The notes below the pieces were generated by a model, which searched no databases, was not told where the DNA came from, and saw only the letters and a list, made by a program, of their open reading frames with translations. Position numbers and translations under genes: made by a program. A stretch of 47,543 nt of DNA, from positions 1 to 47,543 of the IMG/VR virus record IMGVR_UViG_3300023243_000530. One strand, 5' to 3'. This document shows, piece after piece, positions 1 to 44,854 of the stretch; within the stretch, counting starts at the first letter, position 1; each line of letters starts with the position of its first letter. The stretch is from a virus.

Positions 1-298
1 CAAAGTCCCCCTTCGAGACCCCGAGTCTCTCGATCTTTTGCTTGCCTCTGCGGACGCTTCCGGTGAGTTGGCCATCTCACTAAAGGACTATTCAGAGTAT
101 AATTCTGTAGAAGAAACAATCATCGCTTTAACAGAGGCTTCGGGTATGGGATACGACGCAGAATTTGCCATTAAGGCGGCTTGGATGCGTGCAGTTAGAA
201 ACGGAGAAGACCCGTTTGAGCGGGCAAAGCAGCTTGCGCTAAACCCCGCTGGTAGCCTTGATGTACACCTTCTTCCTGCAGACTGGGAGGACAGGTAG
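1..298 (+). CDS. C-terminal end of an unknown protein (5' partial)
   Basis: The frame is open from base 2 to the TAG at 296-298, so the true start lies left of the window; 98 residues are visible. They are acidic and probably helical, with an Ala-rich stretch around GMGYDAEFAIKAAWMRAV, and I recognise no catalytic motif. The stop overlaps the GTG start of the giant gene by one base (TAGTG), which suggests translational coupling within one operon. In comparable phages a portal or other head gene often sits here, but nothing in this fragment proves that. A TTG at 38 would give an 86-residue protein, but the open frame upstream argues for truncation instead. Confidence 0.6.
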   Translation, partial: KVPLRDPESLDLLLASADASGELAISLKDYSEYNSVEETIIALTEASGMGYDAEFAIKAAWMRAVRNGEDPFERAKQLALNPAGSLDVHLLPADWEDR

Positions 299-6200: not shown

Positions 6201-9200
6201 ATTTGTAACTGGTTACCACCCAGGGCACGAAATTCAAGAAAAGTCTTGGAGCCCCCAGACTACTATTAATTACGTCAGAGGTGAGACTGGTCTTCCCCCG
6301 GCTGGGGATAAGCCAGCTGTTCCCGGAAAAACAGATATCTACGCTTCTACTTCCAACAAAGCGGAGCGTGCGAGGCTCCTAGCAGAGAGAGAATCCACCC
6401 TTTCTGAGTCATCAAAGCTCTACGCTCTTGACTCTGCTGCTAAAGTCAACGCTGTCCCGAGTAAAGTTAAAAACCCCAATAGTTTTGTGATGATTGGAAA
6501 GTTTGTTCCGGCTTTCTTTGGGAAAAAGATTTTGGACCTTGTCCGTGGTAAGACTGGCAAGGAAATTAAAGAAGAGCTGAAGAGCAAGAGGGTTGTGTTC
6601 CTTGACTTTGAAAGTGTTGGTAAGGGATTTGATAGACGAAACCCAGATGCCCCAATTCAGGTCGCGGCGGTTGTCTACGAAAACGGTCAAGAAACTGGTC
6701 GTAAGGTTCTCTTTATCAACCCCGGTGAGCGCCTTGGCGGGTATTACTACGAGGCCTACCCTAAGAAAGACCAAGATGCTGCTCCTGGTGATGTCACCCC
6801 CGGAAAACTGCCAGACGGCTCACGTGTAGGACAAATTGTTGGCGATGAGCTTATTACCTACACAAGGCAGGGAGCGCGTTGGGTTAATGATGCCAACTCC
6901 GAGGATGTTTTAAACACAACCCAGCTAAAAACCCGCTCTTCTGAAACTCTAAAGCTAAACGAAGAAGGACAGCCCACTCTAAGAGGTAATCGTCTTCGTG
7001 ATTCTGACGGTAATCCCATCACTGATGAGTTTTTGTCCTCGCAAAAGGGACTCGAGGAGTCCTTCCGCGAGCTGATTGACTTTATCGGGGAAGATGCATA
7101 CCTCTCCGCTTTTAACGCCGATTTCGACATTAATTTATTGGATAGTTTTGCGGAGCGTTTAGGGCTTGACTTCCGCAGTGACGGGTTTATCGACCCTCTA
7201 GCCCTGGCCCGGGCCCTCAATCCAGATGACTCTGTCCCCAACAACCTTCCCTCGGTCGCAACCAGATACGGGATTATTAGGGACCCAGATGACTGGCACA
7301 ACGCTGAGATTGACGTTGAGGTTCTTCCAGATCTTCTGGACAAAATGCTTGATGAAGTAACCCCCGACAACTCTGTTCTTGACGCAGACAAAAGAGCAGC
7401 CGAGTATGAGAACGGGATTCGCAGATATTTTGAACAGCTAGACCAGTGGGAGGCCCAAGAGGGGATTACACCTAGGTCGCCCGCGCCGGTAGAAGCCCAA
7501 GAGGAGCCTACACCTACACCTACACCTACACCTGCTCCTGCTCCTGCGCCTCAGGGCGAAGACACCTCTTCAGATCAAGAAATTGATGCTATGGGGATCG
7601 GGGCCAACCCTCGCTCTATATTTGGTGACACAATAAATGAAGAGTGGATTGCAGACGAAGAAAACACTATCGTTGTGGCCAATAGTGCTAGCAATGTCAG
7701 AGACCTGCGGATTGGTGACTTTTTCGGAGATCAAAACGGAGAGTACAACGAGCTTCTTGTAGTAGAGACAGATCCCATCACCGGCAGGGAGACATTTACT
7801 TACCGAAATGTCAACACAGGAGAGATTTTTAGGGCTTTTGGGGCTCCAGGGTCTCAGGCGCGGGTGGGTACAGATCAAATGCCTTTGCGCAGGCGATCCG
7901 AACTAGACGGGCTGAGTAACGCTGAAATTCTAGGTCTTTTAAATAATCGCGCACGTAGAGACTCTCTAAATATGGCCGTCCCTGAGGTTCAATTTGAAGA
8001 CGGGGCAAGTAGGGCTGTTTCTAAAGCTATTGACGACTTTATTAACGAAGGTCGTGGAGACGCCTCCGTCTCGGACGGCTTGCCTGCTCGCGAGACAAGT
8101 GCCATGCACACCGATAAAAACGGATTTGCTCTTGCCGTAGACGACCTTGTCTATAACCCTAAGACAGGTACTACACATAAAGTAACCCAAACTTACCCAA
8201 CGTACTCTAAAAATGAATACGTTAACTACGTTCGAATAAGTTTTATTAATTCCAAAGGCCAGGCCGACTCTAAGCCTATGGCGTCCGACAAACTTGAACT
8301 GATCAATCCCCCTGCTCAGGAAGAGGCCCTTTCGCCTCTGTCAGATGTTTTTGGCGAGCAGGTCGTTATCGGAGGTAAGAAAGAAAAGCCTAGAGATCCA
8401 ATTTTAATTGCTCGCACAATAGAGCGACTTATGGGCTACCTGAACCCCGGGCCAGGATATATTCGTCCGATTGGCAATGCCATTAAGGCGGCTATTAAAG
8501 CCTATAGAAATAATGATTTTGCATCTGCTGAACGCTTTGCGGGGGCGGCAGTAGACTACGCTGACTCCATAGAAGCCCCAAAAATCACTGTTGAAGACAT
8601 CAAAAACCAGGTTGCTGACAGAGCAAGAGGTCTTGCTGGCCTGATTCAGCTGCCTGAGACAGGTCCTGCACCCAGGGAGGCCTTTGCTGAAGCCGTTGGT
8701 CTGTACAACACCGGGAAGTATGCCCAGGCTCGCAGGAAGCTTGACACGGTGGAAGATCTACTCTGGAACGAGGCAGAAGAAGCTCGTCAATCTGCAGGTC
8801 GCTCACCGCAAACTGCTGTTAAAAAGTTTATTGATGGAGTTGGAGAACTAGAATCTGCGATTGATGCTCCCCTAACCAGAGAATATTTTGCTCGGCTACT
8901 CCGAGATGCTCAACGCAAAGACTATGATTTTGAAAATAAAGAGGGGATTATTCAAGAGGCACTTCAAGCCATTAGAGACGGATTTATTATCCCCGGATAT
9001 CAAGTTCTTGAAAGACTTGCTCGCACCAGAGAACGCCAGCTTGATCAAAAAAATCCAAAGCGGAGAAAGCTTGGAGAAGAAAGCTATACTCAGCGGCTCA
9101 CAGCTGAGATTAACTCTGACGTTGCTGAGAAGCCGGGGTCCTCTGCAGATGAATTAGCGGAGACAGGGACACCCGAAGAGGCTGCTCAGGAGCAATTAGA

Positions 9201-12200
9201 CCAAGTTGTCAACACGGAAGGTCGTCGTGGTCTTTTTTACACAGACGCTGCGAGTATTCAAGAAAAAGATATTGTCTTTACAGAAAGCGGTGTTGGGACT
9301 GTCATAAAGAGGCGGGACCTTGAAGACGGGTCCATTGAATTGACTGTTACGTCTTCGCGTGCTGTCCTTGATGCAGATGGTAACGAAGTAGATCTTCTTA
9401 CCTCCTACAATAAACTGTCCTCCCAGCCCGATGATGAAATACTTCTTCTTCAACGACCCGCCAAGGACAATGCCCCTCTCCCCCAGAAAGCTCGCAGTAT
9501 TGGGTCCTCTGAGATTTCTGACTCTGATTATAACGAATTTGAAGGATTCACTGGGCCAGAAATTGTTGATGAAGAGGATAACGAAATTGAGCCTCCCCCC
9601 GTCCTTAACATGGCAGTCCCGGGAACTTCTCCAGCAGAGGACGTAAATGCTACCCCAGAGCAGGCAGCCATTATGGATGCTATCGCAGAGGGAGTTAAAC
9701 GCGTTAAGGTTCTAGCATTTGCTGGAAGCGGTAAGACCACCAGTCTTAAGATGGCTGCTAAGTCAATTCTTAAAAAGAACCCTAAAGCCAAGATTCTTAT
9801 GGTTATGTTTAATGTCTCTTTGAAGGAAGAGACCTCTGCAAAAATGCCAAAAGGCGTCGAGGTTCGTACCTCTGGATCACTTGCTTTCCAGGCCTTAGAC
9901 CCCCAGCTTAAAAACAAACTGAGTAACCAGGCAAATACAGCCAAGTTCCCCGACATGGCCGTTTCCCTCCGGCAGGAAACTAAAAAGCTCGGCATCCAGG
10001 GTCCTCGTAAGCTTACGGTTGATGGCTCAGAAGAAGAATTCAGTGCCACTAGAGTAGCTCGGGAAGTTAAGAGAGCTGCTATTAAATTTTCATACAGCTC
10101 AGATGATAGAGTTACTGCTGAGCACTTTGGTGATAAATTTGATGAGGTTCCAGCCGAGCTGATTAATTTAGCGCAGAATTACTTTGACATGGCTGTATCG
10201 CCAAATGGTGATATTAAGCTAGAGAATCACCACATTGTAAAGCTTTGGTCAATGTCCAACCCCGATCTGACAAAGTTTGGCTCTGGTGTCTGGAACACCG
10301 GAGCTCAGTATCTCTTTTTTGATGAGGCGCAAGACATCAACCCAGCCGTGGAAAAAGTTATCACCAACCAGAAAAACTTTGAGTCTATGGTCTGGGTCGG
10401 GGATAGCCGACAGGCTATTTATCAATTTATGGGTGCTGTAGATGCAATCAAGAGGTTCTCTGCCGACCGTGTGCTGGCACTCACACAGTCGTTCCGCTTC
10501 GGGGAAAAAATTGCTGGGATTGCGAATCGTGTGCTCAGTCTTATCGGTGAGCCAAGACGCATTAAAGGCTCCGGCCCGAGCGGTGAGATTATCGATGGCA
10601 TGTCTGATCCGACCATTGTTATCAGTCGAACTAACCCTGGTGGCTTGGCCAAGTTGGCTCAGTTTATTGAAGAAGGAAAAGCTGTCGCCATAGACGAAGA
10701 CGCACTCATGGAGTACACATCTCTGCTCGACGGTATTGCTTTCCTCAGAGCACGCACTAACAATCCGGGACTAGAGCGCCCCGCCACACTGCACCCGCAA
10801 CTTGTTGCATATGACGACTATAGCCAACTCCTTGAGGAGAAAAAAGAGGGAATGCTTGGCGGAGGTGCTTCTGCAATGCTCAACATTTTGCAGAAGTTCC
10901 AAGAGTCTCCTAACGACATCGGAGCTGTGCGTGATCTCATAAATCAGTTCTCCGTGGTTCGAGACATCCCCACTGCAAAGCGTAGTGAAGACTATAAAGC
11001 TCTTGATTACGACGACATTGAGCCCGGAAGTATTGTCCAGGTCAACGCGGAGTCCGAGCAGGCTCGCAGGGGGAACTCCGCAGCTTACGCCTGGGTGGGA
11101 GACGACGGCACAGTTTTTGCCCGAGCTTTTGGATTCAACCGAGGTCAAGGAGCTGCTCAAGAGCGCAAAGCTATGCATGCTTACTTTAAGTCTCTAGGGT
11201 TTAAATGGGACCCAGAGGCAAGCATCCCCGACTCCTTGCGCCAGATAAAAAACTCTAACGGTAAGTCTATGCAGACTCCGCCCGAGGGGCAGGGTGGAGC
11301 ATATGTTATGCCCGCCGGGTCTCCCACAAATCTGGACGAAAACGGTCGCTGGATGCTCGCCAATCAAATTAAAAAATACGCTAATAACTACTTCCAAACT
11401 CCAGAAACTCCCATCTCGTTTACCACTGCCCACAGGGCAAAAGGCCGTGAGTGGGATCAAGTTCTAATTGCCGGGGACTTCCCAAAGCCAGATATGGACG
11501 AAGAAAGCCTTGAATGGAAGCTTCCCGATGAGGAGGAGCTAAACCTTATTTACGTAGCAGTCACTCGAGCAATTAAAGGCTTAGATCTTGGCTCCCTGAG
11601 TTGGGTGCTGGAGGAGACCACGGACGACGACGCCGCGTATCGTCAGCCAAGTGCTGAAGAGAGCGTCTTGAACATGGCTATTCCTACTAAAAAAGTCAGC
11701 AAAGTTGAATTTGTTGAAATGGTAGATGAAGCCGATCAAGCCTTGGCTGCCCAAACCCAGCGGGTTCTGGATGAGATTAAAACAGCAATTGCGGACGGGG
11801 AAACCCCCCCGTGGGTCGCCCCATGGCAGGCAACAACCAGAAATCAAAATACTACTCCGGGTCGTCTTCCTATAAGTGTTACTACCGGTAACGCCTACTC
11901 GGGAAGCAATCTTCTTTATCTGCAGGCAGTAGCTAAGAACAACGGTTGGTCAGATAACCGCTGGGCCACCCAGGGCGAAATAGATAAGCGCGGGGGCAAA
12001 GTAAAAGCAGGTGAGCTCCCCACTAGGATGACTGCTTGGTTGCCCAACTACACCACAATTTTAGATGACGAAGGCAACGAACTTGAGACCATTTATTCGG
12101 TAAGCCCTCAAGATCACTTTGTATATAACGTTGAGCAAGTAGACGGTCTAAGCAACCTTGGAAATACCCCTAGTGCCGCATCTCTTACCCCTTCAGAAGC

Positions 12201-13839
12201 AGAAAATGCTATGTTGGCTTCCTACGTAGACGCACCCTCTATTGTTAACCAAGAATCCAGCCCCGAAGACGTCGAAAGCGGCCGGGCTGCCGCTAACTAC
12301 CAGCTAACCACGGACACCATCTCTCTGCCTCTCAGGGAAAACTTTCCTTCTAATGAGAAATATTTTGAAGCACTCGCCCATGAACTTATTCACTCAACAG
12401 GCGCGACTCAGCGACTCAATAGGGAAAGTGTTGCCTTCCCCGGAGGGGTGAGTGCCTACTCCGCTGAGCAGTATGACGAAATGAGAGTCGAGGAAGAGTT
12501 TATTGCTCAGATTGGTACAGCTATTCTGGCCTCCCGGTTAGGGGTTAGCCTAGATATTCCAAACTTGGCTTCTTACATGAAAGCCTGGCAAGATGTGTAC
12601 AGTGACGACCCAGACCGCCTTGTGCGAGCAGCCAGAAAAGCTCAGGATGCTGCTGATTACATTCTTCGAGGCGGTGGCGGAGGCTCCGCGTCAGCCCCTG
12701 AGGCCGCCCCGCTAGATGATTTTCTTGTCTCCTCTACTGGCTGGCAGCTAGCCGTTCCCACAGAGCGTTTTAACATGGCTATCCCGTCGGAAGACACAAC
12801 TCCGGAAAAACTAAAGAGTGAAGTTTCCGAAACTAAGACTAAAGCTCAAGAAATTTCTGAAAAAGTGACCAACATGGTTGTACAGGCCATTGAAGATGGA
12901 AAGGAGCTTCCATGGAACAAGCCGTGGACAAGCGACAACATTTTCTCGATGCCCTACAGCGTGACCTCAAATAAGCCCTACCGAGGATCTAACATTGTTT
13001 CCTTGTGGGTAGCGGCGGCAGTAAACGACTGGGAAGATAATCGCTGGATTACTTTCAACGAAGCCAAAAAGCGTGGTGGGTCCGTCAAAAAGGGCTCCAA
13101 AGGCACTCAAATTGTTAACTGGAGCCCAGTCAAGAAGAACGTAGAACAGCCAGACGGAAGCATGAAAGAGGAAGTAGCCTTTATGCGGCCCTCAGTCTAC
13201 ACTGTGTTCAACGTGGAGCAGACAGAGGGTGTGCAAGACCTCCCCGAGCCCGAGTTGATGGAGCCAGTGCCGATTCTAGAGGCAGAAACTGCTGTCCTCG
13301 ATCGGTACAAAGATGCGCCTCCTATTAGCAATAAGCTTCAAGATGCCGCCTTCTGGCGTCCCTCAACAGACGAAATTGTTATGCCGCTTCGGGAACAATT
13401 TAGTGATGTAGGAGAGTACATCGCTACCCTATTTCACGAACTTACCCACAGTACCGGGCACAAGAATCGGCTAGACCGTAGTGACCTTGGCGATAAGTAT
13501 TCAACACACCTTGATGCTCGAGGAGAGGAGGAGCTTGTTGCCGAAATAGGCTCTGCTATTCTTGCCGCCCGCATGGGAATAGAGCTAGACCTCACTCGAA
13601 CAGCTGGTTACGCACAGTCCTGGTTGCGCCCTTTGAAGAATGATCCCGACATGATAACCAAGGCAGCTCAGAAGGCGCAGGCTGCAGTAGACTACATTCT
13701 CGGAGACTCCCCCTACCGGGGAGAATCCGGTCGGACTGGTGAGGAGCGTGCAGCGGACCTAGAGGCCCCTGAAGCAAATGCCGAGCCCACTGCCCCAAAC
13801 CTAGGAGAGCAGGGAGTACCTGGAGATAGCAATGATTGA
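298..13839 (+). CDS. giant polyvalent protein: repeat modules, DnaQ exonuclease, SF1 helicase, two ArdC-metallopeptidase units
   Basis: 4513 residues. GTG start with a GGGAGG ribosome site about 10 bases upstream. Order: N-terminal region with MRQRRDRKGRFA (about 192-203); Pro/Gly/Arg-rich linker (about 445-540); repeated small modules (about 550-1900); coiled coil (about 1300-1420); DEDDh exonuclease with D2103/E2105, D2277 and H2334/D2339; Pro-Thr/Pro-Ala linker (about 2404-2418); SH3-like and helical region (2560-3100); UvrD/Rep-type helicase with Walker A GSGKT (3143-3147), DEAQD (3342-3346) and late VTRA motif (3755-3758); two ArdC-type units, each an ssDNA-binding-like N-domain plus zincin, with HELIH (4028-4032) and HELTH (4380-4384). 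This architecture matches the 'polyvalent proteins' of phages and conjugative elements described by Iyer, Aravind and colleagues, thought to enter the host with the DNA. Its position just before the capsid protease supports packaging. The motif [LF]NMA[VI]P at 2557, 3103, 3791 and 4158 may mark cleavage. Domain calls are by motif reading; packaging and processing are inference. Confidence 0.9.
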   Translation: MSDNIPVSPLNYHGSFEDENNQIIDAALEFAHDANQGYTGTRVATDGVVLDVARRTLRELDNHPFSVRKHLTLTDVSHFIVLLQKDKAVTASVQHTDLLPVAHPRSSAEHELSNQDLFAAKARWIADDPSIKDEETRAMVASMLTAPEGSAEREYYATRLENSPQGAIPVRALIAAFTGGLGANKGYWMRQRRDRKGRFAFEGGGLSVLVKGSTGAVRRLTGRTVGPGVGEKNDYFDMEVSPGSLVRVPASATESSKAYLPSPNAPDGYSPQKARVQAGDPVIDEKDLIRPDAPSGFNKVADGADVDSPEEKEYYGEDADFGTVYEDENYTVRQFDSGSSPVARDNFNLAQEAEQSCGLTAAGEGDNCPIKTSGAGENGSFDPEKPVLFVSRTDDASNPDIFAASQSWADTLDYIRQDEPRYEAEDRPAPYIKLGDPSRRDNLDPTRREEGPRGPDNRRVDPHGFIIPDKPGLIDGTGRPDISPMRIPLPGPWNPRIPGTGRRPRPGGGRAPGGGGRSPGTGRRWGSNGPNEGHAPYPIPGRRVYPGEIADMRVGSEMEQYLGGFLSTLFGTAKKRQLRKTGADEWVDLETGETYTNDQVSEMAATSGKDSSPFTGLATGPEVRPGTFTKMMSGSLFSELPIGSELNDHLRLFNVMTQFRKVGYNQWRRWDGKIFTDAEVQKKSGTMQIDRVGEFGPGRPPGGEVSGESSKPRLPRGPLTPEELAELRPGSLISIPGEDDQPPRFFVKVGENDWREIDPENFTSDPAVSFTDEDILNMGKDITLEKEPEAYEQGQLGMRPSDLSPEALENLPEGTVVGTSDEEIDNLNIPRQPYATEEAYQAALEEAKEFYRRNRWRKRGPNEWVNDFGEFATDADIADGKKTPGLIISLGDEVSTPEGYYDLNREELYTPTGGAEGQTSPDFTDDPAELAQRFSEEELQAALKEALENPNGFGYLEFAEGDEPVPAEALYYALVRKLGVDVADKFVSVVYGEGRAFDAETELAREFPDILSDDPGKRQAALIEAWNTQWGRSKFALDRDGNFTVTGKDNDSIATQYLLDKIRAEEWGQEFLNDFQEEYGEVLNDRTKAAIKDLFKAYPGLESSDPKEREAAVLRALDDLISDDEYVADEDGNIVEVSPKTALTKLLWDMAQEFIGGTSAPTGRKEEGNLPSVIEGASEEEKAEFDKTGDPTPFLPKDNPESFENVWNNYYNPLPEPYDPKDGPDQINPVNLARKFTPDQLKEQLREAILDGSGYGVVAFEGPSGEPIEFRVPAEALRDALQLQGEDANAFIQDIFNENLSPAKQVQKLIDEIADLKARRDAETNSTEKGKLTRQINKKTAEIGMRYKAIVALKKREAQLDRLSKQSSLSDEERQQVLDKLEQVRARREQEEGIFNGDLEQGESMTPFEENVDAELEKFDFEQASTRTPVEPPAAESPETVEKDKPKPVVSYKRVGNKVFIRQRTGRVITNNPEFKEFIKENGFVYDSKVDKVFEISEMDDTEFNEFMRTVRDRFGISLEPEKGQEAIDFDASPSPTPRPVPSPAEFGKSPNSASIIESLQRRIADIQEFVRKKVVPLLRSDKSDESRQGQQLNRRAENITRKLKNRISRHQDEAPVGKDARDPRVLNIRPTDYQVGDVFVDDLFTVDRIEVSEPITDRQSPYFGEREIVYFGHYPGGVEQMKKRPENFRTDGVYRGLGSPAGGDLPALNSPKGEEYLPEAARNQPRGNLEQIEREPLDGRERRNLYGPKQRDFPEEHDKFLRDYEKYEADLAERRASWSPPAPSGETRPTTTSEGQGAPTPGPRPKIVTGSDEAQNLKPGDITYRENPDGSLEFFVVQTVENRKVKTGTKTVTQEAPEAPQVVDTETAQSALDEAVRRYPELGEDDPARRKRAYAKLIGEFYAEAQQAGEARKEGKDYVPLEGPLGERFGWLLSQRERVVAGEPLSVEEVVPGEPREIEEDVFEEKTFVTGYHPGHEIQEKSWSPQTTINYVRGETGLPPAGDKPAVPGKTDIYASTSNKAERARLLAERESTLSESSKLYALDSAAKVNAVPSKVKNPNSFVMIGKFVPAFFGKKILDLVRGKTGKEIKEELKSKRVVFLDFESVGKGFDRRNPDAPIQVAAVVYENGQETGRKVLFINPGERLGGYYYEAYPKKDQDAAPGDVTPGKLPDGSRVGQIVGDELITYTRQGARWVNDANSEDVLNTTQLKTRSSETLKLNEEGQPTLRGNRLRDSDGNPITDEFLSSQKGLEESFRELIDFIGEDAYLSAFNADFDINLLDSFAERLGLDFRSDGFIDPLALARALNPDDSVPNNLPSVATRYGIIRDPDDWHNAEIDVEVLPDLLDKMLDEVTPDNSVLDADKRAAEYENGIRRYFEQLDQWEAQEGITPRSPAPVEAQEEPTPTPTPTPAPAPAPQGEDTSSDQEIDAMGIGANPRSIFGDTINEEWIADEENTIVVANSASNVRDLRIGDFFGDQNGEYNELLVVETDPITGRETFTYRNVNTGEIFRAFGAPGSQARVGTDQMPLRRRSELDGLSNAEILGLLNNRARRDSLNMAVPEVQFEDGASRAVSKAIDDFINEGRGDASVSDGLPARETSAMHTDKNGFALAVDDLVYNPKTGTTHKVTQTYPTYSKNEYVNYVRISFINSKGQADSKPMASDKLELINPPAQEEALSPLSDVFGEQVVIGGKKEKPRDPILIARTIERLMGYLNPGPGYIRPIGNAIKAAIKAYRNNDFASAERFAGAAVDYADSIEAPKITVEDIKNQVADRARGLAGLIQLPETGPAPREAFAEAVGLYNTGKYAQARRKLDTVEDLLWNEAEEARQSAGRSPQTAVKKFIDGVGELESAIDAPLTREYFARLLRDAQRKDYDFENKEGIIQEALQAIRDGFIIPGYQVLERLARTRERQLDQKNPKRRKLGEESYTQRLTAEINSDVAEKPGSSADELAETGTPEEAAQEQLDQVVNTEGRRGLFYTDAASIQEKDIVFTESGVGTVIKRRDLEDGSIELTVTSSRAVLDADGNEVDLLTSYNKLSSQPDDEILLLQRPAKDNAPLPQKARSIGSSEISDSDYNEFEGFTGPEIVDEEDNEIEPPPVLNMAVPGTSPAEDVNATPEQAAIMDAIAEGVKRVKVLAFAGSGKTTSLKMAAKSILKKNPKAKILMVMFNVSLKEETSAKMPKGVEVRTSGSLAFQALDPQLKNKLSNQANTAKFPDMAVSLRQETKKLGIQGPRKLTVDGSEEEFSATRVAREVKRAAIKFSYSSDDRVTAEHFGDKFDEVPAELINLAQNYFDMAVSPNGDIKLENHHIVKLWSMSNPDLTKFGSGVWNTGAQYLFFDEAQDINPAVEKVITNQKNFESMVWVGDSRQAIYQFMGAVDAIKRFSADRVLALTQSFRFGEKIAGIANRVLSLIGEPRRIKGSGPSGEIIDGMSDPTIVISRTNPGGLAKLAQFIEEGKAVAIDEDALMEYTSLLDGIAFLRARTNNPGLERPATLHPQLVAYDDYSQLLEEKKEGMLGGGASAMLNILQKFQESPNDIGAVRDLINQFSVVRDIPTAKRSEDYKALDYDDIEPGSIVQVNAESEQARRGNSAAYAWVGDDGTVFARAFGFNRGQGAAQERKAMHAYFKSLGFKWDPEASIPDSLRQIKNSNGKSMQTPPEGQGGAYVMPAGSPTNLDENGRWMLANQIKKYANNYFQTPETPISFTTAHRAKGREWDQVLIAGDFPKPDMDEESLEWKLPDEEELNLIYVAVTRAIKGLDLGSLSWVLEETTDDDAAYRQPSAEESVLNMAIPTKKVSKVEFVEMVDEADQALAAQTQRVLDEIKTAIADGETPPWVAPWQATTRNQNTTPGRLPISVTTGNAYSGSNLLYLQAVAKNNGWSDNRWATQGEIDKRGGKVKAGELPTRMTAWLPNYTTILDDEGNELETIYSVSPQDHFVYNVEQVDGLSNLGNTPSAASLTPSEAENAMLASYVDAPSIVNQESSPEDVESGRAAANYQLTTDTISLPLRENFPSNEKYFEALAHELIHSTGATQRLNRESVAFPGGVSAYSAEQYDEMRVEEEFIAQIGTAILASRLGVSLDIPNLASYMKAWQDVYSDDPDRLVRAARKAQDAADYILRGGGGGSASAPEAAPLDDFLVSSTGWQLAVPTERFNMAIPSEDTTPEKLKSEVSETKTKAQEISEKVTNMVVQAIEDGKELPWNKPWTSDNIFSMPYSVTSNKPYRGSNIVSLWVAAAVNDWEDNRWITFNEAKKRGGSVKKGSKGTQIVNWSPVKKNVEQPDGSMKEEVAFMRPSVYTVFNVEQTEGVQDLPEPELMEPVPILEAETAVLDRYKDAPPISNKLQDAAFWRPSTDEIVMPLREQFSDVGEYIATLFHELTHSTGHKNRLDRSDLGDKYSTHLDARGEEELVAEIGSAILAARMGIELDLTRTAGYAQSWLRPLKNDPDMITKAAQKAQAAVDYILGDSPYRGESGRTGEERAADLEAPEANAEPTAPNLGEQGVPGDSND
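7507..7551 (+). repeat. CCTACA-type hexanucleotide repeat encoding a Pro-Thr/Pro-Ala linker
   Basis: Four exact CCTACA units (7507-7530) are followed by two CCTGCT units, one CCTGCG and a final CCT. In frame they encode alternating Pro-Thr and then Pro-Ala, a stiff unstructured linker directly after the DnaQ-like exonuclease domain of the giant protein. Such repeats change length easily by slippage in whole Pro-X steps without breaking the frame. Confidence 0.8.
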
Positions 13840-38494: not shown

Positions 38495-40288
38495 ATGACA
38501 GTCTTGGCGGAAAAAACTCCAGACGATAAACATATTATTATCCACTCTGAGTGGCGCTACAAAGAGCTGTGTAAAAGCCTACCTGGATCTTCGTGGTCTG
38601 CCAGTGATTCCGTTTGGAGGGTGCCTCTGAGCTGGACAAGCTGCCTGGCTTTGCGGTCTACCTTCCGGGATACTCTGGAAATCGGCCCCGAGCTAACAGA
38701 CTGGGCCTCTAAAGAGCGCCAGACCAGGATTGACCCCGCCATGGCCCTGAGGGACCTGGAAGAAGCAGAGGGGGATGAAGATTTATTCCCTCACCAGCGT
38801 GCTGGTGTTGCGTACCTTGCAACAGTCAAGCGTGCCCTGCTTGCTGACGAGCCAGGGCTTGGAAAAACTGCTCAAGCGATCCGAGCTTTAAAGAAGATTC
38901 AAGAAAAGGGAGAAGAGGTTTTTCCTGCGCTGATTGTCTGCCCCAACACACTCAAGGGCACGTGGGAGCGTGAGTTTAAGCTGTGGTGGCCTGAGGTAAA
39001 TGTAAAAGTTGTCCGTGGCACTGCCACGCAGCGGAGGAAGCAGCTAGAAGAGGAAGCCGACGTGTACGTCATCAACTGGGAGTCGCTACGCGGACACTCT
39101 AGGCTCGCTCCATACGGCTCCGTGGCGCTTGCTCGGTGTACTTCATGTGGCGGGCAAAACTCAAAAGTCTCCGAAAATCGTTGTGAGGTCCATCTACGCG
39201 AACTAAACAAAATGGACTTTAAAGCTGTGGTTGCCGACGAAATCCACAGGTCTAAAGAACCTAAGAGTAAGCAAACACGAGCACTGTGGTCTGCCACGGG
39301 CGATGCCGAGATTAGGTTTGCCCTCACCGGAACTCCTATTGCTAATAATGTTTTAGACCTGTGGCCTATTTTGCACTGGCTGAGCCCACGTGATTGGCCT
39401 AGTAAGACGAAGTGGATTGATCGAATGGTCGACACTATGCTCAATGCTTTTGGTCAGCTTATGATTATCGGAATTAAGCCGACTATGTACGAAGAATTTT
39501 ATGCAACGGTAAATCCCTATATGAGGCGGATGCTGAAAGCTCGAGTTTTGCCGTGGCTTCCCGAAGTTATCAAAGAACGCCGAGATGTTGAAATGTCGCC
39601 TAAGCAGAAAAAAGCATACGACGAGATGAAAAATCTAATGATCGCACAGCTTGAGGACGGGGAGATTCTGACAGCACCCAGCGTGCTCACCCAAACTCTT
39701 CGTTTAGTCCAGTTCGCTAACTCGTACGCGTCACTCGAAATGCACCCAACTACGGGAGAGCCCAGGGCTATCCTGGCTGAGCCCTCCTGCAAGGTTGATT
39801 CCCTGATGAGTGACATTAAGAACGGTGACTTTGAGGGCGAGTCTGTTGCCGTGTGTGCGGTGTCTCGCCAGCTTATTTACCTTCTGAGCGCCGAGCTAGA
39901 CAAGGCAAAAATTCCGCATGGGCTGATCACCGGGGCTCAAGACGATATGGAGCGACAAGAAGCTATTGATAACTTCCAGGCCGGGAGGATTAAGTGGATT
40001 CTTTTCACAGCTCAAGCGGGGGGTGTGGGTGTTACGCTTACTGCGGCCCGCAGGCTCATTATGCTGCAGCGTCCGTGGTCTTTAGTAGACTACAAACAAG
40101 CTCTTGACAGAGTACACAGGATTGGCTCAGAAATACATGATTCAATCATAGTCACGGATTACATCACAGAGAAAAGTATAGAATCCCGTATTATCAAAGT
40201 TCTTGCTAAAAAAGCAGATAATTTTGAAGAAGTAGTTCGAGACAAAGAAAAACTTATTAGCCTACTAGAGGACGAGAAAGCATCATGA
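38495..40288 (+). CDS. SNF2-family DNA helicase/translocase (597 aa)
   Basis: ATG with GAAAGGAC upstream. Superfamily 2 ATPase that moves along duplex DNA. Residues 1-80 form a small domain with WSASDSVWRVPLSWTS, resembling HARP-type DNA-binding domains. Then ADEPGLGKTAQAI (Walker A, Lys124), DEIH at 248-251, LTGTPIANNVLDLWPILHWL (motif III), and a second lobe with LFTAQAGGVGVTLTAA and QALDRVHRIGS (motif VI). A CTSCGG...C-x-x-H zinc-finger-like insert sits before DEIH (about residues 213-230). In phages this class probably acts in fork repair or recombination-dependent replication. Its stop overlaps the next start (ATGA). Confidence 0.9.
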   Translation: MTVLAEKTPDDKHIIIHSEWRYKELCKSLPGSSWSASDSVWRVPLSWTSCLALRSTFRDTLEIGPELTDWASKERQTRIDPAMALRDLEEAEGDEDLFPHQRAGVAYLATVKRALLADEPGLGKTAQAIRALKKIQEKGEEVFPALIVCPNTLKGTWEREFKLWWPEVNVKVVRGTATQRRKQLEEEADVYVINWESLRGHSRLAPYGSVALARCTSCGGQNSKVSENRCEVHLRELNKMDFKAVVADEIHRSKEPKSKQTRALWSATGDAEIRFALTGTPIANNVLDLWPILHWLSPRDWPSKTKWIDRMVDTMLNAFGQLMIIGIKPTMYEEFYATVNPYMRRMLKARVLPWLPEVIKERRDVEMSPKQKKAYDEMKNLMIAQLEDGEILTAPSVLTQTLRLVQFANSYASLEMHPTTGEPRAILAEPSCKVDSLMSDIKNGDFEGESVAVCAVSRQLIYLLSAELDKAKIPHGLITGAQDDMERQEAIDNFQAGRIKWILFTAQAGGVGVTLTAARRLIMLQRPWSLVDYKQALDRVHRIGSEIHDSIIVTDYITEKSIESRIIKVLAKKADNFEEVVRDKEKLISLLEDEKAS

Positions 40289-41214
40289 CCCAGCCAGTAA
40301 GACTTTCAAACTCTGAGATTCAAACTTTTAAGGATTGTCGCCGACGTTGGTGGTTTACCTACTACCGCAGGCTCCAGCCTAAAGAGAAGCAGCGCACTGG
40401 CGCACTGGCTCTTGGATCACGCATTCATGAGGCCCTGGATCAGCATTACTCTACGGGTAAGTCTCTTCTTGAGGCCCACAGCGCATTGGTCGAGGAAGAG
40501 AAGAAATCTTTGCTATCGGAGTTTAAGGATGTTGCTTCTCTTGAAAATGAGGCCGAGCTGGGCCACATTATGCTTGAGGGCTACCTGCAGTGGGTAGAGG
40601 AAAACGGCATTGACGTCGAACTAGATATTATCTCCACTGAAGAAATTATCACTGTGCCCTTGTTTAACGGTGAGGTCGAGCTCACAGGTAAACTAGATAT
40701 GCGGGTCCGTCGCAAGATTGACGGTGTCCGGATGTTCAGAGATTTTAAGACCGTAGGGGGCTCTCTCAGCGACTTTGCAAACCTTGCTCCGATGAATGAG
40801 CAGGTTCTCACCTACATGACCTTGGAAATCCTTAAAGAGGGGGAAGAGAACCGCTCTGAGGGTGGCCTCTTTACGCTACTTAAAAAGGTTAAAAGGACCG
40901 CTGCAGCTAAGCCTCCGTTCTACGATCAGATCGAGGTCCGGCACAACGTCTTTACTTTAAGGTCGTTCTGGGATAGACTTCACGGAACAATTGCTGATTT
41001 GATGAGAGTCCGCAAAGCCCTCGATGAAGGAGAAAGTCATGCATACAACGCATACCCAAGTCCTACTCGAGATTGTAAGTGGAAATGCCAGTTCTACAAT
41101 GTGTGTACTTTAGTAGACGACGGAAGCGCCTCAGAAAGCGCAATAGAACAAATGTATGATGTAGCCGACCCCTATGCCTACTATGGCGAGGGTGATAAGA
41201 AAGGAAGCGATTAA
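40285..41214 (+). CDS. PD-(D/E)XK nuclease, Cas4/RecB type with candidate Fe-S cluster (309 aa)
   Basis: ATG overlaps the SNF2 stop. N-terminal LSNSEIQTFKDCRRRWWF carries Cys18. The nuclease core shows GKLDMRV with Asp138 and RDFKT with Asp153 and Lys155. The C-terminus has CKWKCQFYNVC with Cys264, Cys268 and Cys274, which with Cys18 could hold a 4Fe-4S cluster as in Cas4 and AddB; the spacing is C-x3-C rather than the usual C-x2-C. Such phage nucleases resect DNA ends for recombination; here the gene lies next to a Sak4-like ATPase and an SSB-like protein, a familiar recombination set. Confidence 0.87.
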   Translation: MTQPVRLSNSEIQTFKDCRRRWWFTYYRRLQPKEKQRTGALALGSRIHEALDQHYSTGKSLLEAHSALVEEEKKSLLSEFKDVASLENEAELGHIMLEGYLQWVEENGIDVELDIISTEEIITVPLFNGEVELTGKLDMRVRRKIDGVRMFRDFKTVGGSLSDFANLAPMNEQVLTYMTLEILKEGEENRSEGGLFTLLKKVKRTAAAKPPFYDQIEVRHNVFTLRSFWDRLHGTIADLMRVRKALDEGESHAYNAYPSPTRDCKWKCQFYNVCTLVDDGSASESAIEQMYDVADPYAYYGEGDKKGSD

Positions 41215-41975
41215 TGTCCCAAGTACAACGTTCACTGACCGTAATGGTCTACGGAGATTCAAAAGTTGGCAAGTCTACTTTTGCAGTCACTGCCCCGTAC
41301 CCACGTCTGATGCTAGACGTAGAAGGCGGCCACCGCTTTCTTCCTATTGTTGCTAAATACTGGGACCCTATGCGTGAAGAGCCTCCAATGGCTGACGGCA
41401 CGTGGGACACAGTAGTGGTGACAGTCCGAGACTACGACACGGTGCTGAAGGCCTACCAGTGGCTTCAAGCGGGTAAGCACCACTTTAAGAGCTTGATTAT
41501 TGACTCTATCTCGGAGCTTCAGGTGAAGGCAATGGACAGCATTGCCGGAACCGAGCAGATGAAGATGCAGCAGTGGGGCGAGCTTTTGCGCCACATGGGC
41601 TCTCTCTTGCGGGATCTTCGTGACCTGACGATGCACCCTACAAACCCACTAGAGGCAGTTGTCTTGACAGCTATGTCTAGGGTTGGGCAGGACGGGTCAC
41701 ACCGTCCTTACTTGCAGGGCCAGCTTGCTATTCAAGCTCCATATTTTTACGATATTCTGGGAGCCCTCACCATTGAGGAGTTCCAGAACCCGGACCCCAT
41801 GCAGCCTCCATACAAACTGCGTCGCATGTACGTTGAGCGAACAAAGGAGTATGAGGCCGGGGAACGAGTGCAGGGCCGACTAGGCGCAATCGTGGAACAG
41901 GATAAGCTCTCTATTGAGGTTATGCTGGACACCATTTTTGGGCCAAGGCAAGCTACTGCACAGACAACTGAATAA
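41214..41975 (+). CDS. RecA-like ATPase of the Sak4 type (253 aa)
   Basis: ATG in a TAATG overlap. A single RecA-fold domain: Walker A GDSKVGKST (14-22), LMLDVEGGHRF just after it, and Walker B SLIIDSISEL with Asp97. Length fits Sak4-like single-strand annealing/recombination ATPases of phages, which load on DNA coated by an SSB-like partner; the next gene is a probable such partner. Alternative: another AAA ATPase of replication. A Rad52-like or RecT-like partner is not seen. Confidence 0.82.
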   Translation: MSQVQRSLTVMVYGDSKVGKSTFAVTAPYPRLMLDVEGGHRFLPIVAKYWDPMREEPPMADGTWDTVVVTVRDYDTVLKAYQWLQAGKHHFKSLIIDSISELQVKAMDSIAGTEQMKMQQWGELLRHMGSLLRDLRDLTMHPTNPLEAVVLTAMSRVGQDGSHRPYLQGQLAIQAPYFYDILGALTIEEFQNPDPMQPPYKLRRMYVERTKEYEAGERVQGRLGAIVEQDKLSIEVMLDTIFGPRQATAQTTE

Positions 41976-42012
41976 TCCATCAACAATACAGATCGAAGCT
42001 AAGGAAAAAATA

Positions 42013-42540
42013 ATGGGTACTAATGTTAATTTCGGGCACATTCTGGAAAATGTTTCAGATGCACCTGATTACTCTCCGTTGCCAGATGGTGACTACGACC
42101 TGGCGGTGTTGAGCTGCGACGTCGCTACCACGCAAACTGGTAAGTACATGCTCAAGCTGAAGACGCAGGTGGCCTCTGGGTCGCACGAGCGTCGGCTTCT
42201 GTGGGACAACCTTGTGTTCTCCACAGACAACCCTAAGGCTATGGGCATCATTCAGGGAAAGTTGAACGCTCTTGGGCTCACCCCTGACTACCTGAAGCAG
42301 AACAACCCCGACCTGGAGACGATTGCCAACACTCTTGTCAATCGCACCTTCCGGGCCAAGGTTGGTCAGAGCGAGTACCAGGGGAAGATGCGTAACGAGA
42401 TGAAGGCCTACTACCCGGCCACTTCAGCGGCTACGGCACCGGCTCCTGCCCCAGCAGCACCCCCCGCCCCACCCGTAGCAGCCGGAGCGGCAGTACCACC
42501 GCCACCTCCAATTGCCACGCCAGGGCAGCCTCCGTTCTAA
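42013..42540 (+). CDS. ssDNA-binding-like protein (DUF669 type, 175 aa)
   Basis: ATG 42013 follows AAGGAAAAAATA; an in-frame start at 41914 would overlap the ATPase gene and is rejected. The body (about residues 1-135) has PDGDYDLAVLSCDVATTQTG, LKLKTQVASGSHERRLLWDN and LVNRTFRAKVGQSEYQGKMR, resembling the DUF669 group of phage proteins placed next to Sak4 or RecT-like recombinases and thought to coat ssDNA. The end is a Pro-Ala tail (from about 140) finishing PGQPPF, like the C-terminal tails that recruit partners in SSB. Alternative: a general OB-fold replication protein. Confidence 0.7.
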   Translation: MGTNVNFGHILENVSDAPDYSPLPDGDYDLAVLSCDVATTQTGKYMLKLKTQVASGSHERRLLWDNLVFSTDNPKAMGIIQGKLNALGLTPDYLKQNNPDLETIANTLVNRTFRAKVGQSEYQGKMRNEMKAYYPATSAATAPAPAPAAPPAPPVAAGAAVPPPPPIATPGQPPF

Positions 42541-42551
42541 ACACTGTGGCA

Positions 42552-42584
42552 GAGGGGCATCATCCTACCGGGATGGTGCCCCTC
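42552..42584 (+). terminator. 14-bp intergenic hairpin after the SSB-like gene
   Basis: GAGGGGCATCATCC (42552-42565) pairs with GGATGGTGCCCCTC (42571-42584), all 14 positions with one G-T pair, around the loop TACCG. No T-run follows; ACTATAAGGAAAG leads into the next ribosome site. It could be a weak terminator or an RNA-stabilising end, closely resembling the arrangement at 23444-23483. Confidence 0.6.
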
Positions 42585-42607
42585 ACTATAAGGAAAGTAA
42601 AAACATA

Positions 42608-43036
42608 ATGAGTAGCAATCTTGACATGGAGTGGGTAAAGTCCCAGCTCCAGGAAGCTAAAGTTCGAAAAATAATTGGTGACTCTGTTATTAATTTAATT
42701 GAACACCTTGAAACTTTTGACAAACTCAGTGACGAGCATAGGGTGACTGTTGTCGACCTTTTCTCTAAACTAGCCGTTGGACACGCACATATCAAAGTTA
42801 ATGAGGACGAGATGTGGATCCAAGTTACCCCCGGTCAAATTAAAGTAGCTGACCAAATTAGGGTCAGGTCTGACGCCTTCACAGGGCCCCTAGGGGCCGC
42901 CCACAACGGCAGGCGGGGTGTAGTTGTGGCTGTTCGCTACGGGGATGTAATTATTAAATCTAGTGACGGAAGGGAGCCGGTACTAGACGGAGCGCACTAC
43001 GCACCACAAAAGCTAGAAAAATTAATTATTACGTAA
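42608..43036 (+). CDS. hypothetical protein (142 aa)
   Basis: ATG 42608 with AAGGAAAG upstream, just after the intergenic hairpin; an in-frame start at 42512 would run through the hairpin and is rejected. The first 70 residues are helical (MEWVKSQLQEAKVRKIIGDS). The rest contains DQIRVRSDAFTGPLGAAHNG and RGVVVAVRYGDVIIKSSDG, which looks like a small SH3- or KOW-like beta-barrel. Function unknown; it is the last gene before the regulatory group. Confidence 0.6.
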   Translation: MSSNLDMEWVKSQLQEAKVRKIIGDSVINLIEHLETFDKLSDEHRVTVVDLFSKLAVGHAHIKVNEDEMWIQVTPGQIKVADQIRVRSDAFTGPLGAAHNGRRGVVVAVRYGDVIIKSSDGREPVLDGAHYAPQKLEKLIIT

Positions 43037-43355: not shown

Positions 43356-43646
43356 ATGAATGCAGAACCTGTTAAGTCTCCAGTTCCCGTATGCGAAACA
43401 TGTTGGATTGCAAAAAACTCCACATGGGAGCCCCACAGCATGGATGACAATGGGAGTATCATGATGCGCCTTAAGGACGTTGAGATCCCGATGAAGTACA
43501 ACACAGGGACGGTAGAGATATGTGACTACTGCGGAAAAGTAACTATTGCTGGGATTTATCATTTAATTAGTAGAGACTCTCATTTTGGATTTGGCCTTGC
43601 TGAGCTGGAGTCGGCTTTTTCTGAGACAGATGATGAGGATGAATGA
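43356..43646 (+). CDS. small protein with two CxxC pairs (zinc-binding, 96 aa)
   Basis: ATG with no ribosome site, preceded by a -10-like box 6 bases upstream, so translation is probably leaderless. Cys13-x2-Cys16 (CETC) and Cys56-x2-Cys59 (CDYC) would form a zinc ribbon. The end is acidic (ETDDEDE). No further domain is recognised. It lies between two WhiB-type genes, so a regulatory role is possible. The stop overlaps the ATG of the next gene (ATGA). Confidence 0.65.
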   Translation: MNAEPVKSPVPVCETCWIAKNSTWEPHSMDDNGSIMMRLKDVEIPMKYNTGTVEICDYCGKVTIAGIYHLISRDSHFGFGLAELESAFSETDDEDE

Positions 43647-43960
43647 TCGACAAAAGACTGGGCGACTACCTCTGGGTTGAGTGGCCCGAGGAAGAACATC
43701 TTTACTACACCCCGGAGCATGTTGATATTGACCAGGAGATTGTGAGAAGAGCTCTTGCATCGGCTCTGCAGAGAGACGGCCTTGTGGATAGTCTTTTTGC
43801 GGGCTTTGAAGCTATTGCAGAGGCAACAGTAGAGCAGGGCTGGATGGGAAGTCTGACCGATGATATTGAAATGCTGATATGTGACGAAGAAGGGGAAACA
43901 TTTTACGGAGAAATAGTAGAAAAAGCACTTCCCTGCACCTGGGTAAAAGTCTATATTTAA
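43643..43960 (+). CDS. hypothetical acidic protein (105 aa)
   Basis: ATG overlaps the previous stop. The protein begins MIDKRLGDYLWVEWPEEEHL, is acidic and mixed helical and strand-like, and includes a Gly/Ala-rich middle with LFAGFEAIAEATVEQGWMG. No Cys pairs, no membrane segment, no family I recognise. Its coupling to the zinc-binding gene suggests they act together. A hairpin follows its stop. Confidence 0.6.
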   Translation: MIDKRLGDYLWVEWPEEEHLYYTPEHVDIDQEIVRRALASALQRDGLVDSLFAGFEAIAEATVEQGWMGSLTDDIEMLICDEEGETFYGEIVEKALPCTWVKVYI

Positions 43961-44001: not shown

Positions 44002-44007
44002 GTAGTG

Positions 44008-44013
44008 TAAAAT
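44008..44013 (+). promoter_or_regulatory. -10-like TAAAAT, 6 bases before GTG 44020 (leaderless start)
   Basis: TAAAAT at 44008-44013, then AGTATT, then GTG 44020. There is no ribosome site before the GTG, and the spacing equals that of the site at 43344. A -35 cannot be named with confidence; the expected place lies within the preceding hairpin. Confidence 0.5.
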
Positions 44014-44019
44014 AGTATT

Positions 44020-44535
44020 GTGTGGAACCCAGCGGATAACTTAAAATGGCAAAAAGATGCCGAATGTGCTAAACCAGCCAACAAAAAATATGTTGACTGG
44101 TTTTTTTCTAAAAAGCCTGAAGAAAAATATGCTGCCAAAAATCTTTGCTACAGTTGTCCCGTGAGATCTGAGTGCCTTCAGTGGTCACTTGAAAATAAAC
44201 AAATTTGGGGTGTGTGGGGCGGTAAGGATGAGGTGGAGATCCGCAGAACGCTTTCTGTCTCCTATAAAGGAGAGGAAGCGCGTAGACGTAGGTACCCAAA
44301 CTGTCCCTACTGCAACGCAAGGCCTTTTCAGTTAGAGACTCGAATAGAAAACGTTCCCGGCGGGGGTAGGTGGAAAACTGCCAAGGTTGTTGTATGCTCC
44401 GAGTGCAATTTTAGCTGGAGAAGTAGAACAAGCGTTAACGCCATTGAGGCCTACAAGCAGATGCGCTCAGACCGAATTGCCCGTCGTGAAAGAGATAAGA
44501 CTAAAAGACGTCGTACTCGAAAAAAGGCTACTTAG
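44020..44535 (+). CDS. whiB-like: WhiB-like regulator fused to a zinc ribbon and basic tail (171 aa)
   Basis: GTG start, probably leaderless. Residues 1-80 are a complete WhiB unit: Cys16, Cys43, Cys46, Cys52 and GVWGG at 64-68, with nearly the same spacing as the gene at 43065. After it comes a zinc ribbon with CPYC at 95-98 and CSEC at 126-129, then a strongly basic tail (RERDKTKRRRTRKKAT). Typical WhiB proteins end near residue 100, so the C-terminal half is an added nucleic-acid-binding module. It may act as a phage-specific regulator with its own DNA contacts. Its last 8 bases overlap the end of the opposite-strand membrane gene. Confidence 0.85.
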   Translation: MWNPADNLKWQKDAECAKPANKKYVDWFFSKKPEEKYAAKNLCYSCPVRSECLQWSLENKQIWGVWGGKDEVEIRRTLSVSYKGEEARRRRYPNCPYCNARPFQLETRIENVPGGGRWKTAKVVVCSECNFSWRSRTSVNAIEAYKQMRSDRIARRERDKTKRRRTRKKAT

Positions 44536-44854
44536 ACCCCGCTCCGTCAGGGTCGTCTTCGAATTCTAACGCCTCGGAGGGGCTGCTATCGCCCCGGTAG
44601 TGGAAACGATCGTCCATTGTGGCAAACGCTGTGTACGCAGTCAAAATAATGCTAATAAGGCTCACGCCCCCGATGATCATCTGAGAAGCGACCTGAGTAT
44701 CGGTAGAATACACAAAAGCCCCGAAAATAACCATCCCCGCGCCTAGACCATAAGACATATAAATTAGTCTACGACGGTGCTTCCAGGATGGTAGTTTCAT
44801 CCCATTACTAGGAGCTGGATCGGACTCTCGAGGCTGCAGAAGTTTAAAGCGCAT
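44528..44854 (-). CDS. small membrane protein, holin-like (108 aa)
   Basis: ATG at 44854 on the minus strand. Basic N-terminus with KHRRRLIY, then two hydrophobic segments at about residues 30-49 (YMSYGLGAGMVIFGAF) and 57-77 (IIGGVSLISIILTAYTAF), then an acidic tail (EFEDDPDGAGSK). Two transmembrane helices, basic start and small size fit a class II holin, which opens the membrane for the lysis enzyme. No endolysin gene is seen nearby, which weakens the call; any small inner-membrane protein is possible. Starts 4 bases after the glycosyltransferase stop, with a TAAAAT box 6 bases upstream. Confidence 0.6.
   Translation of the reverse strand: MRFKLLQPRESDPAPSNGMKLPSWKHRRRLIYMSYGLGAGMVIFGAFVYSTDTQVASQMIIGGVSLISIILTAYTAFATMDDRFHYRGDSSPSEALEFEDDPDGAGSK

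Follow-up and report, generated by a model that had tools for sequence, protein, structure and literature searches.

The window analysed here is a 47,543-nt stretch of viral DNA (IMG/VR record IMGVR_UViG_3300023243_000530) in which exactly two genes match the WhiB profile, one encoding a small stand-alone protein and the other a longer product that continues beyond the WhiB domain (Table 1). In the longer protein, the Pfam WhiB model (PF02467) aligns with residues 10-75 (E 2.4e-16; 60.4 bits against a gathering score of 23.6), and the translation continues into two CxxC knuckles, CPYC (95-98) and CSEC (126-129), which contribute the ribbon cysteines C95/C98 and C126/C129, and into a Lys/Arg-rich end. 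These results bear out the original prediction of a WhiB domain joined to a Cys4 ribbon and a basic extension. The GTG start is backed by most relatives, which share the start position and open with [M/V]W, and by the -10-like box located just before it.

Table 1. Features of the fusion locus. Positions are those of the window, except for the second arrays, which are given in the coordinates of the records named.
Feature	Position	Strand	Remarks
Cas4-like nuclease, RecA-like recombinase, two hypothetical genes	40285..43036	+	Syntenic with relatives
Small stand-alone WhiB, 93 aa	43065..43346	+	Pfam WhiB E 4.6e-14; found in 59/87 loci
96-aa protein with CETC...CDYC pair	43356..43646	+	Syntenic in 40/47 loci; TAAAAT-N6-ATG
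Acidic 105-aa gene immediately upstream of the fusion	43643..43960	+	Syntenic in 40/47 loci
Core promoter-like element TAGTGTAAAATAGT	44003..44016	+	-10-like TAAAAT at 44008-44013, 6 nt before GTG
WhiB-zinc-ribbon fusion gene	44020..44535	+	171 aa, GTG start; start site common to relatives
WhiB (Wbl) domain, residues 10-75	44047..44244	+	Putative Fe-S ligands C16, C43, C46, C52; W10, F28, F29; GVWGG turn, W66
Arg-rich linker, residues 79-92 (SVSYKGEEARRRRY)	44254..44295	+	Sequence conserved; low model confidence
Predicted Cys4 zinc-ribbon domain, residues 93-145	44296..44454	+	CPYC...CSEC; conserved R117, W118, W133, R136, N140; then helix
Basic C-terminal tail, residues 146-171	44455..44532	+	Length and sequence vary, charge kept (median +8), Lys/Arg-rich
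Second TATAGT-type arrays	L181 3300-3850; L182 near 3038; L183 near 3162; L184 near 2694		

The fusion gene comes last in a gene series that runs through the Cas4-like and RecA-like genes, two hypothetical genes, the small whiB gene and the genes for the 96-aa and the acidic 105-aa proteins. This order is conserved, with each neighbour except the small WhiB present in 40-47 of 47 loci, and synteny with the Cas4-like and RecA-like genes spans IMG/VR records and Microbacterium phages; in Arthrobacter phage Atuin the neighbours of the fusion gene differ. The separate small WhiB anticipated about 0.7 kb upstream is indeed encoded there, its stop codon lying 674 bp before the fusion GTG, and a counterpart is found 0.65-0.77 kb upstream of the fusion in 59 of 87 loci. 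The proposal that the two proteins provide two layers of sigma control does not hold as a general scheme, because 28 of the 87 loci, including all named-phage relatives examined, lack the small WhiB, whereas the fusion is always there. Likewise, the fusion is present in all 12 larger records, each of which carries one to three WhiB genes in total. A two-layer WhiB scheme is therefore possible in the window phage, but it is not the rule among its relatives. A phage sigma factor was considered as partner and rejected, with weak region-4 matches detected in 3 of the 12 records.

Several other features of these genomes deserve mention. The 96-aa gene possibly encodes a second small ribbon protein with its own leaderless promoter, and its start is arranged like that of the fusion gene, as TAAAAT-N6-start. 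The acidic 105-aa protein (24 D/E, 7 K/R) is a candidate partner or antagonist of the fusion, and its gene overlaps the fusion start in DSL-LC01 and in Microbacterium phages. On the opposite strand, a convergent 108-aa membrane-like ORF (44528-44854, -) overlaps the fusion stop codon and is present in one of 49 relatives. Elsewhere in the window, a 4513-aa ORF (298-13839, +) resembles a polyvalent phage protein, with helicase-like and other enzyme-like stretches recognised by eye. DSL-LC01 (OQ999401.1) harbors an extra WhiB match at 12815-13018, far from the fusion and within a 178-aa frame, which may be another extended WhiB.

The N-terminal half of the fusion presents the defining features of the Wbl family. 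The four cysteines of the [4Fe-4S] signature, with its C-x2-C-x5-C core (C16, C43, C46 and C52), are invariant in 91 distinct proteins, residues 64-68 (GVWGG) follow the Wbl G[I/V]W[G/A]G turn, and the putative sigma-interface residues W10, F28, F29 and W66 are near-invariant in the 91 homologues. The nearest solved chains by sequence and fold are S. venezuelae WhiB, from the WhiA/WhiB-RNAP complex, and then WhiB1, WhiB7 and WhiB3 on sigma region 4. Residues F31, F32 and W76 of WhiB3 are required for sigma-A binding and have F17, F18 and W60 as their counterparts in WhiB1 (PMC10245118); by sequence correspondence, F28, F29 and W66 occupy these positions in the fusion. In three Microbacterium phage relatives GVWGG is replaced by GTRAG or GTRGG, substituting Arg for the turn Trp, and the ribbon is retained. 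This suggests that some of these proteins may not dock on sigma-A in the canonical way, and that the ribbon seems to function independently of that contact.

Structural modelling predicts that the C-terminal half folds as a beta-ribbon with a helix. The full-length model (mean pLDDT 79, pTM 0.69) has a flexible point at residues 80-84 (pLDDT < 50), and the C-terminal half modelled alone (mean pLDDT 82) forms three strands, predicted at E27-33, E42-48 and E54-60, and a long helix. With its invariant CxxC pairs and predicted strands, this half presents the two CxxC knuckles on beta strands that are characteristic of zinc ribbons. Among the fold neighbours of the isolated ribbon half are the zinc ribbons of ELOF1, RPB9, VdcD and archaeal RNase P Rpp21, all weak and generic (E 0.03 to 0.3); no structure matched the ribbon at E 0.001 or better, and no ribbon family matched the window protein above its curated cut-off. 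Below the cut-offs, the named families that come nearest by profile are VdcD, which matches 51 of 55 members of the fusion family at E <= 1 (best 2e-4), with the window protein scoring 19 against a cut-off of 30, and Lar (TIGR03655), which matches 28 of 55 (best 3e-4), with the window protein at 16.5 against 39.6; its PF14354 score is also below threshold. Comparison with a VdcD fragment, on a shallow profile, returned 78% probability. Lar/RalR was discarded as the source of the ribbon: sub-threshold matches exist, but the E. coli RalR profile comparison yielded 5.7% probability and no meaningful alignment. A search for diverse Lar proteins produced near-identical copies only. As modelled, the C-terminal domain is a predicted zinc ribbon without an assignable named family.

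Scans of viral contigs identified at least 556 relatives, and at least 555 when run with the C-terminal half; the best 80 of each were retained. In the fetched loci, all 179 ribbon-bearing ORFs (duplicates included) also encode a WhiB domain, and no stand-alone ribbon was detected among the loci from the best 80 of the more than 550 matches per scan. The four ribbon cysteines are, like those of the WhiB domain, invariant in the 91 distinct proteins, as are G84, P93, L105, R117, W133, R136 and N140, and the conserved basic positions comprise R88, R89, R91, R117 and R136. Such conservation across 91 unique relatives excludes chance as the origin of the fusion. In a non-redundant set of 60 proteins, pairs share on average 0.64 identity over the WhiB domain, 0.70 over the linker, 0.69 over the ribbon and 0.25 over the tail, and dN/dS, estimated on 22 independent pairs of moderate divergence, is 0.074 for the WhiB domain, 0.041 for linker and ribbon together and 0.225 for the tail. 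By these measures, constraint on the ribbon equals or exceeds that on the WhiB half, with purifying selection stronger on the ribbon by dN/dS, and the tail, with a median charge of +8 in the non-redundant set, is kept as charge alone.

The predicted beta-ribbon plus helix, and a constraint equal to or above that of the WhiB half, match the expectation that the C-terminal half would fold as a ribbon and be conserved. The basic tail envisaged alongside it retains its positive charge, but it is not conserved as sequence (25% pairwise identity) and is nearly absent in Atuin. Since the tail is variable yet almost always basic, the core innovation of these proteins is the ribbon and the Arg-rich linker, rather than the tail.

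Hundreds of phages, mostly from freshwater, encode the fusion, and strong selection maintains it. Named phages harboring it include DSL-LC01, Pumpernickel, A3Wally, Zooman, Big4 and Cece, and the Arthrobacter phages Atuin and Racecar contain more distant relatives. Megablast of window positions 23000-44535 against isolated phages returned no match. The original prediction had called for a search in other phages and prophages; the fusion does occur in other phages (at least 555 viral contigs) but not in the cellular genomes or prophages covered, with no ribbon relatives found in ~85,000 GTDB species genomes. On this distribution, the WhiB-zinc-ribbon protein appears so far to be phage-specific.

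A TAnnnT box is located 5-8 nt before the start in 73 of the 75 genes of the clade with an [M/V]W start, versus 29% at control offsets, and a Shine-Dalgarno-like sequence is present in two of the 75. The proximity of the box to the start and the rarity of Shine-Dalgarno-like sequences indicate a leaderless transcript, and the fusion gene is thus probably expressed as a leaderless mRNA from its own promoter. In the window the box is TAAAAT, within the longer element TAGTGTAAAATAGT; that element occurs once in the window, though 22% of shuffles contain a match with two mismatches allowed. In many relatives, the gap of ~60 bp before the fusion gene is occupied by TATAGT/TTTAGT repeats with 7-10 bp spacing. 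In 48 of 91 loci a cluster of three or more repeats immediately precedes the fusion gene, with only five other clusters detected in 0.79 Mb, and 49 non-redundant upstream regions contain 52 instances of TATAGT, versus 13.8 +/- 3.7 in first-order Markov sequences. Among larger records, 13 of 16 present the array at the fusion promoter (reversed-pattern control, 0), and about five contain a second intergenic TATAGT-type array preceding a conserved small-gene operon; the array is followed in L183 by a TTGACA-17-TAATAA promoter-like sequence. No TATAGT array is present in the window phage or its closest relatives, and the array is hence not needed for the function of the protein. The fusion may regulate its own promoter.

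The WhiB-like regulators of actinobacteria contact DNA weakly by themselves, and their choice of promoters has long been a puzzle. Computation establishes the two domains, their joint conservation, the conserved position of the gene, the sigma-interface residues and the leaderless-type promoter. The interpretation that we favor with moderate confidence is that the fusion is a sigma-A-docking Wbl regulator whose ribbon supplies a contact with promoter DNA or, less likely, with RNA polymerase or RNA. The WhiB domain would carry a [4Fe-4S] cluster and, as its contact residues suggest, dock on the housekeeping sigma factor of the host at region 4, while the ribbon, putatively loaded with zinc, would act with the Arg-rich linker and the basic tail to give the contact missing in ordinary Wbls, binding promoter DNA upstream of or around a weak -35 region. 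Host RNA polymerase would be placed on a set of phage promoters, probably including that of the fusion itself, with activation a likelier outcome than repression, and this action would be timed to the phase of replication and recombination gene expression. We count for this interpretation the matches to solved WhiB chains, the near-invariant sigma-interface residues, the invariant ribbon cysteines, the low dN/dS of the ribbon, the leaderless-type promoter, the clustering of TATAGT arrays at the fusion promoter in relatives, the conserved arginines and basic tail, which fit nucleic-acid contact, and the weak structural neighbours of the ribbon, which are transcription or RNA zinc ribbons (ELOF1, Rpp21, RPB9). 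Against it weigh the sub-threshold family and fold matches of the ribbon, the Arg in the turn of Microbacterium phage relatives and the lack of a TATAGT array in the window phage and its nearest relatives.

The fold neighbours of the ribbon can also be read as pointing to a protein partner. In this rather unlikely alternative, the ribbon would be a protein-protein module on core RNA polymerase or on a second host protein, and the fusion a polymerase appropriation or elongation factor. ELOF1 on RNAP II and RPB9 are among the best, albeit weak, fold matches, the conserved surface includes the aromatics W118 and W133, and the ribbon stays in Microbacterium phages that have lost the sigma-turn Trp; matches of this strength, however, would be expected of any zinc ribbon, and the Arg-rich linker and basic tail suit nucleic acid at least equally. 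A more specific form of promoter contact, which we deem unlikely, is that the ribbon is a sequence-specific reader doing in cis the job that WhiA does for Streptomyces WhiB and that, in one freshwater actinophage clade, it reads the TATAGT arrays of its own promoter and of one or two further phage operons. If true, the fusion would be the first case of a folded DNA-binding domain built into a Wbl, and it would provide a mappable phage regulon.

It is improbable that the fusion acts mainly by repressing or displacing a host WhiB, in the manner of TM4 WhiB and WhiB2, leading to division arrest or superinfection exclusion, with the ribbon adding affinity for host promoters. PMC10202952 cites reports of TM4 WhiB as a transcriptional inhibitor of WhiB2 and of phage WhiB-like proteins preventing superinfection and inhibiting septation, and among solved chains the WhiB half of the fusion comes nearest to Streptomyces WhiB. 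Against this, the gene lies in a cluster for replication and recombination and no searched record of the group lacks it, and of the two WhiB copies the small one would resemble TM4 WhiB more. Very improbable is a direct tie of the ribbon to DNA recombination, for instance as a single-strand DNA or accessory factor with the WhiB part as a redox or cluster sensor, which would agree with the strong synteny with Cas4-like nuclease and RecA-like genes in IMG/VR and Microbacterium phages but sits poorly with the gene's own leaderless-type promoter in the main clade, with conserved sigma-contact residues that argue for transcription and with the different neighbours in Atuin.

Phage whiB is a marker gene in use for freshwater actinophages. 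A Wbl regulator with a folded and strongly conserved second domain, as proposed in the favored interpretation, would offer a natural test case for promoter choice by Wbls and, if the ribbon binds DNA, a route to mapping the regulons of abundant phages that are uncultured. That phages carry whiB genes, often several, is well established (PMC8612146, PMC10914622, PMC6802176 and PMC10202952). No description of the WhiB-zinc-ribbon architecture was found in the openly accessible literature on WhiB with zinc ribbons, zinc fingers or freshwater actinophages. Judging from sequence, the 44020-44535 product is best described as an actinobacterial phage WhiB-zinc-ribbon fusion, a variant of the Wbl family apparently undescribed as such. 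Microbacterium phages Pumpernickel, Zooman, Cece, Big4 and A3Wally, together with DSL-LC01, encode the same fusion in a similar position, annotated as 'WhiB family transcription factor'; these annotations omit the ribbon, and the Microbacterium members examined have Arg in place of the GVWGG Trp.

The zinc-ribbon subunit VdcD/ShdD (7ae4/7ae7) and Lar-like ribbons (TIGR03655) present, as the fusion does, a Cys4 ribbon followed by a helix, but all matches to them fall below curated cut-offs and their biochemical roles are unrelated. WhiB7 is, according to a review of the Wbl family (PMC6282962), the sole Wbl with a recognised DNA-binding motif, an AT-hook, and the WhiB7-type RGRP AT-hook was not found after the GVWGG turn in the window protein or the relatives listed. 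With the Wbl family at large (PF02467; S. venezuelae WhiB, 8dy9/8dy7; WhiB7, 7kif; WhiB1, 6ono), the fusion shares the four Fe-S cysteines, the G[V/I]WGG turn, the aromatic sigma-contact residues and a basic segment after the turn, but the chain of cellular Wbls stops after a short basic or AT-hook tail, whereas the fusion adds a linker and a second complete Cys4 domain. A precedent for such an arrangement is WblP, in which a Wbl domain is joined to a second transcription module (PMC6282962); the partner in WblP is a sigma factor and its gene is plasmid-borne, whereas in the window fusion the partner is a ribbon and the gene is carried by a phage.
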